A stretch of DNA of 64,000 nt from contig JAMORY010000028.1 of the NCBI GenBank assembly GCA_027063305.1, positions 1 through 64,000 of the forward strand, read 5' to 3'. Position 1 is the stretch's first letter. The number at the start of each line of letters is the position of its first letter. Positions 16,509 through 18,267 of the stretch are shown piece by piece. The notes beneath the pieces are model-generated. The model saw only the letters and a list, made by a program, of their open reading frames with translations, did not search any database and was not told the DNA's origin. A program made the position numbers and the translations under genes. This DNA comes from Sulfurovum sp. (GTDB taxonomy: Bacteria > Campylobacterota > Campylobacteria > Campylobacterales > Sulfurovaceae).

Positions 16509-18035
16509 ATGACAGTAGTGATCGCACTCACCGGTATTGCAGGGGCTGCAATCGGTGCTGGAATGAGCTATTTTTGGCTGACTAGAACGAACCAGAAAAG
16601 ATTTGACCATTATGAGCTTGAGGCCAAAGCCAAGGCCAAGGCCATTAGCAATGAAGCTGAGCTGTTATTGCAGGAGACAGAGGTTAAGCTTAAAGCAAAA
16701 GCATTGGAGCAGGAAGCAGAGTTCCAAAAAAGGGTTGCTGAGGTAGATGAACGTAATCGTGCGTTGATCCTTCAGCAAAAGGAACTGGAGAAAGAGGAGA
16801 AGCGGTTACATGCAAGTTACCGTGACTTACAGGACAAACAGGATCGATTGAGTGAACTTGAACGTAAGAAAGAGGCTCAGATCAATGAAGCGATCGAAAA
16901 GATGGAGAGTATCGCATCCTTGACAAAAGAAGAGGCGAAGCGCTATATTTTAGAGAAGGTAGAGTCGCAAAGTCGTTCAGAGGTCGCTGCGATCGTACGG
17001 AAGTATGAACAGGTGGCAAAAGAGGAGGGAGAGAAGAAAGCAAACTATATCCTTGCCCAGGCAACGACCAGATATGCCGGAGAGTTCGCAGGAGAGCGTC
17101 TGATCAACCTTGTGAATCTTCCTAGTGATGAGCATAAAGGGCGTATTATTGGGAAAGAGGGGCGGAATATCAAGGCGCTTGAGATGCTTTTGGGTGTCGA
17201 TATCGTCATTGATGAGACTCCGGGGGTGATCTTGGTCAGCTCATTCAACCTCTATCGCAGAGCTATCGCGACACGTGTGATCGAGATACTGGTGGAGGAT
17301 GGTCGTATCCATCCGGGGCGTATTGAAGAGGTGCATGAGAAGGTAGAAAAGGAGTTTGAGCAAAAGACCTATGAAGAGGGTGAGAACATTCTGATCGATC
17401 TGGGACTCTTCCCGATGCATGAAGAACTTGTCAAACTGATCGGTCGGTTAAAGTACCGTGCCAGTTACGGACAGAATGCATTGGCACATACGCTTGAGGT
17501 TGCGAAACTGGCACGTATTATGGCTGCGGAGATGGGTGGTGACGAGAAGCTTGCCCTGCGTGCGGGATTATTGCATGATATCGGTAAAGCCTTAACACAG
17601 GATCTTGGCGGTTCACATGTGGAGATCGGAGCGGAGCTTTGCCGTCGTTACGGAGAGCATCCAACGGTCATCAATGCGATCTATGCGCACCATGGACATC
17701 AAGAGCCTGATTCAGTCGAGAGTGCGGCAGTCTGTGCGGCCGATACGCTTTCGGCAGCGCGCCCGGGTGCCAGACGAGAGGTACTGGAGAGCTTCACCAA
17801 GCGTGTCCGTGAGATCGAAGAGATCGCAACTGCAAAAGAGGGAGTGGAACGTGCCTATGCGATCAATGCCGGACGTGAGATACGTGTGTTCGTCAATGCC
17901 CAGTCCCTCAGTGACAATGAAACGGTACTGCTTAGCAAAGAGATCGCCAAAGAGATACAGGAAAAGGTACAGTACCCCGGAGAGATCAAAGTCAATGTGA
18001 TCCGAGAGATCCGTGCAACAAGTATTGCAAAATAG
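16509..18035 (+). CDS. rny: ribonuclease Y
   Basis: 508-aa membrane-bound endoribonuclease that starts mRNA decay. An N-terminal transmembrane helix (about 3-22) is followed by a long Lys/Glu/Ala coiled coil (about 30-180), a KH domain (GRIIGKEGRNIKALE, about 214-228) and an HD domain with the catalytic pair H356-D357 in LLHDIGKA. Length is normal. The last 22 codons (17970-18035) have a diverged second copy 95 bp downstream. The C-terminus here (REIRATSIAK) is less like the usual RETRAV form than the ghost copy is. Confidence 0.96.
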   Translation: MTVVIALTGIAGAAIGAGMSYFWLTRTNQKRFDHYELEAKAKAKAISNEAELLLQETEVKLKAKALEQEAEFQKRVAEVDERNRALILQQKELEKEEKRLHASYRDLQDKQDRLSELERKKEAQINEAIEKMESIASLTKEEAKRYILEKVESQSRSEVAAIVRKYEQVAKEEGEKKANYILAQATTRYAGEFAGERLINLVNLPSDEHKGRIIGKEGRNIKALEMLLGVDIVIDETPGVILVSSFNLYRRAIATRVIEILVEDGRIHPGRIEEVHEKVEKEFEQKTYEEGENILIDLGLFPMHEELVKLIGRLKYRASYGQNALAHTLEVAKLARIMAAEMGGDEKLALRAGLLHDIGKALTQDLGGSHVEIGAELCRRYGEHPTVINAIYAHHGHQEPDSVESAAVCAADTLSAARPGARREVLESFTKRVREIEEIATAKEGVERAYAINAGREIRVFVNAQSLSDNETVLLSKEIAKEIQEKVQYPGEIKVNVIREIRATSIAK

Positions 18036-18129
18036 ATAGAGCGACTAGTCGCGGGAGCCCGCTGCTGAAGCGAACATAGCGTTAGCGTAGCATACGGAGC
18101 TTTGCTTTGGATGCGTTCTAATGAAATAG
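18036..18129. repeat. hairpin cluster between rny and its ghost 3' end
   Basis: A 94-bp insert-like segment, more GC-rich than neighbouring intergenic DNA. It holds the palindrome GCGACTAGTCGC, then GCGGG-AG-CCCGC, then GCATACGGAGC-TTT-GCTTTGGATGC (11-bp stem with one mismatch and G-T pairs). No coding potential is seen. It looks like a small mobile or integrated element. Confidence 0.55.
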
Positions 18130-18195
18130 CAGTTCCCCGGTGAGATCAAGGTCAATGTCATTAGAGAGACCAGAGCGGTAAGTATTGCGAAATAG
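18130..18195 (+). pseudogene. rny: ghost copy of the rny 3' end (22 codons)
   Basis: Translates in one frame as QFPGEIKVNVIRETRAVSIAK-stop, against QYPGEIKVNVIREIRATSIAK-stop at 17970-18035. By eye 53 of 66 bases match and most differences are synonymous. It is preceded directly by a TAG and has no start codon, so it is not a gene by itself. Confidence 0.85.
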
Positions 18196-18225
18196 GCTTG
18201 TTATACTTTATAAATGATAAAAGAG

Positions 18226-18231
18226 TATAAT
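18226..18231 (+). promoter_or_regulatory. -10 box for the small gene at 18268
   Basis: TATAAT in GAGTATAATATAG, 37 bp before the GTG start. Confidence 0.5.
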
Positions 18232-18267
18232 ATAGTATTGTGAATTTTATAGAAAAAGGTTAAAAAC

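Follow-up and report, generated by a model that had tools for sequence, protein, structure and literature searches.

A ghost of the rny 3' end in Sulfurovum as a probable long target duplication beside a small structured repeat

RESULTS AND DISCUSSION

The window analyzed here (the whole stretch of 64,000 nucleotides from contig JAMORY010000028.1 of Sulfurovum sp., assembly GCA_027063305.1; genome G000) contains an intact rny gene and, downstream of it, a second copy of the gene's 3' end. This ghost is probably, with a likelihood of roughly 55%, a long target duplication (66 bp) that arose from the insertion of a small structured repeat of about 85 to 95 nt, termed E here. Because the arrangement of repeat, insert, and repeat recurs at 13 other loci, gene starts included, the layout belongs to E and not to rny. 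Duplication upon insertion is supported by this layout at 14 loci, by the genus-wide presence of E, and by intact junctions in genomes that lack E there; a mismatch between live tail and ghost at cmoB in two genomes counts against it. Insertions find little room in compact bacterial genomes, and a short repeat that duplicates the junction at its point of entry can lie between overlapping genes without damage to either, leaving ghost ends and ghost starts behind. Long target duplications of variable length, an oddity still lacking an explanation, are made by a few insertion sequences; a repeat family spread across the genus, with numerous natural insertions and corresponding sites without E, would open the process to study. 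The features of the rny locus are listed in Table 1.

Table 1. Features of the rny locus, in window positions
Feature	Position	Strand	Basis
rny, intact, RNase Y	16509..18035	+	ORF; TIGR03319 profile match, 587.6 bits
Left copy of duplicated target (live rny 3' end)	17970..18035	+	Repeat search
E, structured repeat, 94 nt	18036..18129	+	Covariance model match 18035-18129, 102.4 bits; aligned copies; structure
E core, TAGAGCG...GCGTTCTA	18037-18120	+	Aligned copies
First hairpin of E, GCGACTAGTCGC palindrome, covarying	18041..18052	+	Structure analysis
GTAG tag beside last E hairpin	18087..18090	+	Aligned copies
Right copy of duplicated target (ghost of rny 3' end)	18130..18195	+	Repeat search, alignment
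Downstream flank of ghost, resembling the flank directly behind rny in G037 and G030, which lack E	18196..18267	+	Alignment

The duplicated rny 3' end

The earlier note had described a recurrence of the last 22 codons of rny with 53 of 66 bases identical, and both figures stand, with a start-to-start distance of 160 and a spacer of 94 bp in place of the 95 bp given there. The differences are indeed mostly synonymous (8 of the 11 changed codons among 22); the residue changes are Y/F, I/T, and T/V, and the tail peptides are those reported, QYPGEIKVNVIREIRATSIAK in the live gene and QFPGEIKVNVIRETRAVSIAK in the ghost. Although 21 codons and the stop are preserved, the ghost is not translatable alone, with an in-frame TAG directly 5' of it and no ATG, GTG, or TTG codon inside. 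The flank score of this E copy, 37.4, exceeds the 99.9th percentile of permuted flank pairs (24.6), and the repeat is therefore not a chance resemblance.

A survey of 70 rny loci yielded 69 usable ends, the locus of G033 being cut before the stop codon. Ghosts were present only in G000 and G001. The latter shares the tail-E-tail layout, with a flanking repeat of 78 bp; its ghost has lost one base and the stop and resembles its own live end more than the G000 ghost resembles that of G000. A search of 30 further loci from named records, 27 of them testable, gave a best window of 24 of 36 positions, versus 30 in G000 and 35 in G001. Directly behind rny in G070, G010, and G034 (L044, L048, and L060), a partial E is followed by a near-identical full E in a tandem array.

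The spacer is a structured repeat

The spacer between the two rny tails is one complete copy of E, and the insert consists wholly of it. When the region was searched against its own genome, two further places matched the spacer only, at 84% and 86%, one behind a secA-like gene and the other near a glyA-like gene (both named by eye). Many more matches to the spacer were found across 78 genomes of the genus. An alignment of 46 copies, picked for likeness to the G000 spacer, spans 99 columns and defines the conserved unit; the other copies used in this study were top covariance model matches and are likewise a nonrandom sample.

The common structure of the 46 copies comprises five helix segments, namely, the palindrome, a hairpin with a GCTGA loop, a 3-pair hairpin of the form (A/G)AC...GT(T/C), and, next to GTAG, a last hairpin in two parts. 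Pairing holds in 94.9% of 917 alignment cells, and both sides have changed in 18 of 20 pairs; one pair is A-U in 29 copies and G-C in 17 without exception. On each of the five measures, all 500 shuffles fell short of the observed value, and pairing dropped to 30 to 43% when the partners were slid; as the copies are related, these controls cannot be read as probabilities. Since G.U cells outnumber A.C cells (73 versus 11), the pattern of substitution points to the E strand as the one that folds, either as RNA or as single-stranded DNA. The spacer folded alone is unremarkable (z of -0.80), the structure being visible in the alignment only, and a closing stem TAGA/TCTA is poorly kept. E is thus a covarying structured motif found at many gene ends and has no Rfam entry; the Rfam 15 covariance models gave no match on E in the window and four E loci.

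Direct repeats flank E at many loci

The 160 model matches comprised 150 unique copies with a length of 88 nt or more; flanks were available for 148, and 145 remained usable after removal of short or N-rich flanks. Repeats were counted as abutting when they lay at most 25 nt from E on the left and at most 10 nt on the right, a rule under which high scores from tRNA neighbors and tandem E copies drop out. Abutting direct repeats with a score of at least 13 flank 21 of the 145 copies, versus 0.36 expected from permuted flanks; at a score of at least 20, 15 were observed and 0.14 expected. These repeats are 14 to 69 bp long and 74 to 100% identical, and grouping by neighboring genes places the 21 copies at 14 loci. 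The rny copy of G001 is not among them, as its degraded 5' part of E fails the abutting rule. The other 124 usable copies have no such repeats, which may have decayed or may never have existed.

Eight of the first 47 copies are repeat flanked, situated at rny (G000 and G001), the end of cmoB (G063, G041, and G050), and the start of tcdA (G032, G016, and G018). More generally, the duplicated targets are gene ends or starts, for example, of rny, cmoB, tcdA, nusB, gpsA, hisF, and prmA. NCBIfam names at E loci include glycerol-3-phosphate dehydrogenase, a ThiF-family protein nearest TcdA, SurE, NusB, HisF, PrmA, HisZ, PurA, and an amidohydrolase-like protein, most of them assigned below the curated cutoffs, in some cases as the locus holds a partial gene. 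The neighbor gene at L314 had no NCBIfam match; cmoB was named via the window's own copy, and the RibH, Xer, and FtsH neighbors were named by eye.

Matching junctions without E

In G037 and G030, the rny tail and its flank are uninterrupted, and it is with this continuous sequence that the G000 ghost and its flank align.

At tcdA, 28 of 30 loci have no E within 230 bp upstream, and in most of these 28, surE extends as far as the tcdA start or overlaps it. In G018, G016, and G032, the tcdA start is present on both sides of E, and the side toward tcdA carries a new ribosome-binding stretch.

Among the repeat-flanked loci as a whole, the case that looks youngest is that of G012. Its repeat copies are identical at 33 of 34 positions, whereas the highest match among 19 relatives is 31 of 34, and behind the ghost stands the type of flank seen in G033, G061, and G027, which lack E. 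As the two copies in G012 are each other's closest match, their alignment favors a local duplication.

At cmoB, G023 lacks E and ends in KAHKASKS*; the flank that follows is present in G041 and G050 only behind the ghost. The live tail of these two genomes (KAR* or KAG*, CCT, and then E) is of the G063/G022 type.

Which copy is native

Compared with G003 and G042, the G000 ghost is identical at 58 of 66 bases; compared with its own live end, it is identical at 53, and the live end shares at most 54 with any other genome. The ghost is thus closer to the rny of other species than to that of its host, the opposite of the result that the earlier note had named as a refutation and in line with the separate histories that it assigned to the two ends. 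The claim that the ghost is nearer the usual family form holds among near relatives, where 13 VQFPGEIKVNVIRE genomes, a partly circular set in that it was chosen for sharing the ghost's F, have the ghost state more commonly at 10 of 13 differing sites and the live state at 2, with 1 tie; it does not hold against all 68 other ends (6 sites for the ghost and 7 for the live gene). In the rny tree, the nearest rows to G000 include G001, G003, G037, and G004, and the fork of G000 and G001 has a support of only 88.

At cmoB, the gene body of G041 and G050 is about 90% like that of G023, but the last 100 bp of G041 are 92% identical to G053 versus 86% to G023. Between G063 and its sister G053, identity drops from about 93% to 82% in the 700-800 window of cmoB. 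At nusB, E is 97 to 100% identical in G063 and G022 while the flanks are at about 80%. On the strength of these identity shifts at cmoB and nusB, E and its neighborhood seem to pass from one lineage to another as well. For G000 and for cmoB, it looks as though the live tail was replaced and the ghost is the native copy. In G016, G047, and G049 (L297, L331, and L317), E and several hundred flanking bases are about 97 to 100% identical in genomes otherwise distant, a stretch shared either by exchange from species to species or as a conserved neighborhood.

Proposed origin and alternatives

In the sequence of events that we favor, E would have inserted at the rny 3' end with duplication of a long target stretch, giving tail-E-tail. 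The left copy would still have served rny as its 3' end, and the right copy, which kept its connection to the original downstream flank, would have become the ghost. We infer that the target duplication was made at the insertion itself; with less confidence, we propose that the live tail of G000 was later swapped by homologous recombination for the homologous tail of another lineage, an occasional second step as a result of which the ghost would now be the more native copy. Where gene junctions are tight or overlap, long duplications may be the ones that survive, since no others leave both genes whole.

A tentative and distinctly less probable alternative, corresponding to the allelic replacement of the earlier note, is the import of a donor rny tail with E behind it. 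Homologous recombination on the side of the gene, together with illegitimate joining at E's 3' end, would have placed the two before the recipient tail, which became the ghost. Import would account for the G000 ghost being nearer close relatives than the live end, a finding that also counts against plain duplication with neutral decay of the ghost. It would likewise accommodate the cmoB tails of G041 and G050, with a live end of the G063/G022 type and a ghost of the G023 type, which speak against target duplication upon insertion, and it fits both the drop in identity between G063 and G053 and the nusB E copies that are more alike than their flanks. However, import leaves the arrival of E at new loci unexplained, and the joint lies at the end of E in all 14 loci, whereas a random joint would fall anywhere. 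The copies in G012, moreover, are nearer each other than any relative.

That the rny end was simply duplicated in tandem and then diverged, with E arriving by chance, is highly improbable. Such units can multiply, as seen in a T-E-T-E-T array at L306 470-689 (G046), in which one gene end occurs three times and E twice, but none of the 69 rny ends has a tail copy without E, and the flanking repeats abut E far above chance. This origin is disfavored on both counts.

The earlier note had taken the layout to fit an element that integrated at the rny 3' end, bringing its own end, or an allelic replacement that left the old end behind. An integrase element since deleted to 94 bp formally resembles phages that replace the end of their target gene, as phage 21 and e14 do at icd; the proposal is nevertheless largely refuted and hardly credible at all, since the spacer is a full E copy without an integrase gene or remnant, the layout is repeated at unrelated genes and at gene starts, and no phage record matches. 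No larger integrase element was seen behind rny among the 69 ends, which were searched for tail copies (some being short downstream) and nine of which were read by eye. What survives is the old end: the ghost and its flank match those of G037, and an old native end behind a newer live end is plausible in G000 from the alignments, with the E repeat as the cause.

Relation to known repeats and candidate mobilizers

GTAG and CGTC palindromic repeats have been reported in Sulfurovum sp. NBC37-1 (Di Nocera et al. 2013, PMC3733652), in a text in which the word "duplication" is absent. Such REPs are described there as dispersed hairpins of 20 to 40 bp with a GTAG or CGTC tag and covarying stems. E resembles the GTAG REPs in having GTAG next to a stem-loop with a stem within 5 to 13 bp; in the 46 copies, the GTAG positions are invariant or at least 90% conserved, and behind them lie helices 4 and 5 (3 and 6 pairs). 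At 85 to 95 nt and with several hairpins, E falls outside the REP size range. Judged by the published description, E may include the NBC37-1 GTAG family. In the literature searched, mostly without subscription journals, nothing beyond these GTAG- and CGTC-type repeats described E or duplicated gene junctions in Sulfurovum.

Insertions of IS1634 and IS1549 come with long direct repeats that vary in length from 8 to 514 bp, for which the account in PMC2266710 gave no mechanistic model at the time. The repeats at E are similarly long and variable; in contrast to E, IS1634 and IS1549 are insertion sequences of 1.5 to 2 kb with a transposase (PMC2266710). Unusually long target duplications are also made in the IS1202 group (16 to 28 bp in part of the family [PMC10132070]), although its members are full insertion sequences with a narrower length range.

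MITEs are short noncoding repeats that typically make short duplications. E is likewise short and noncoding, and a long form in G031 (L378 to L407; 127 to 132 nt) has extra inverted arms, TAGACTTCTTGC...GCAAGAACTCTA, and TA ends; unlike typical MITEs, E has covarying inner stems. Long flanking repeats were present in 0 of 7 usable copies of the G031 form, and more than one route of E movement may therefore exist.

A bacterial counterpart of SINEs, RNA derived and inserting through an RNA-dependent, loosely staggered process that duplicates 14 to 78 bp, is a long shot; if it were true, E could colonize overlapping gene junctions and break neither gene. RVT_1 reverse transcriptases occur in 21 of 78 genomes, with no relation to the number of E copies (Mann-Whitney P of 0.75), and are absent from the six E-richest genomes. 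An RVT_1 gene (125.9 bits) is present in G000 at C28:96941-97552, on the same contig as the window and outside it. The IS1634 transposase scored above the cutoff in 3 of the 78 genomes, none of them G000 or the E-richest genomes. Y1_Tnp (RAYT, Y1 transposase) was found in 58 of 78 and has a weak rank correlation of 0.24 with the number of E copies (P of 0.03); G071 has 31 Y1_Tnp and no E. None of these three is a convincing mobilizer across the 78 genomes. Phage records gave no match to E, and plasmid records gave one partial match, from Sulfurovum mangrovi.

Distribution of E and its position at gene ends

The covariance model detected E in 71 of 78 Sulfurovum genomes, with 0 to 52 copies per genome, a median of 8, and a sum of 802. 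G031, when searched by itself, gave 62 covariance model matches. At the family level, under a stricter limit and with fewer candidates scored, E was found in 111 of 175 genomes and 7 of 11 genera.

The ends of E provide stop codons for neighboring genes. In rough gene calls (open frames of 100 codons or more), the stop lies 5 to 24 nt inside the E model match for 35 of 67 convergent genes on the right; on the left, 20 of 57 genes terminate between -14 and +10 relative to the start of the match. There are thus two ways in which E spares its neighbors, a duplicated junction or a stop supplied by its own end. The idea that stops lie nearer E on the left was rejected, as the one-sided test came out reversed (left median of 29, n = 57; right median of -7, n = 67; P of 0.99999). 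A rule that the live gene always lies 5' of E was also dropped; at tight junctions, both copies serve a gene. In G000, the last codons of the secA-like gene lie inside E (L002 1489-1585; C13 near 114673), and G066 and G011 (L163 and L168) have E at apparently the same secA-like place.
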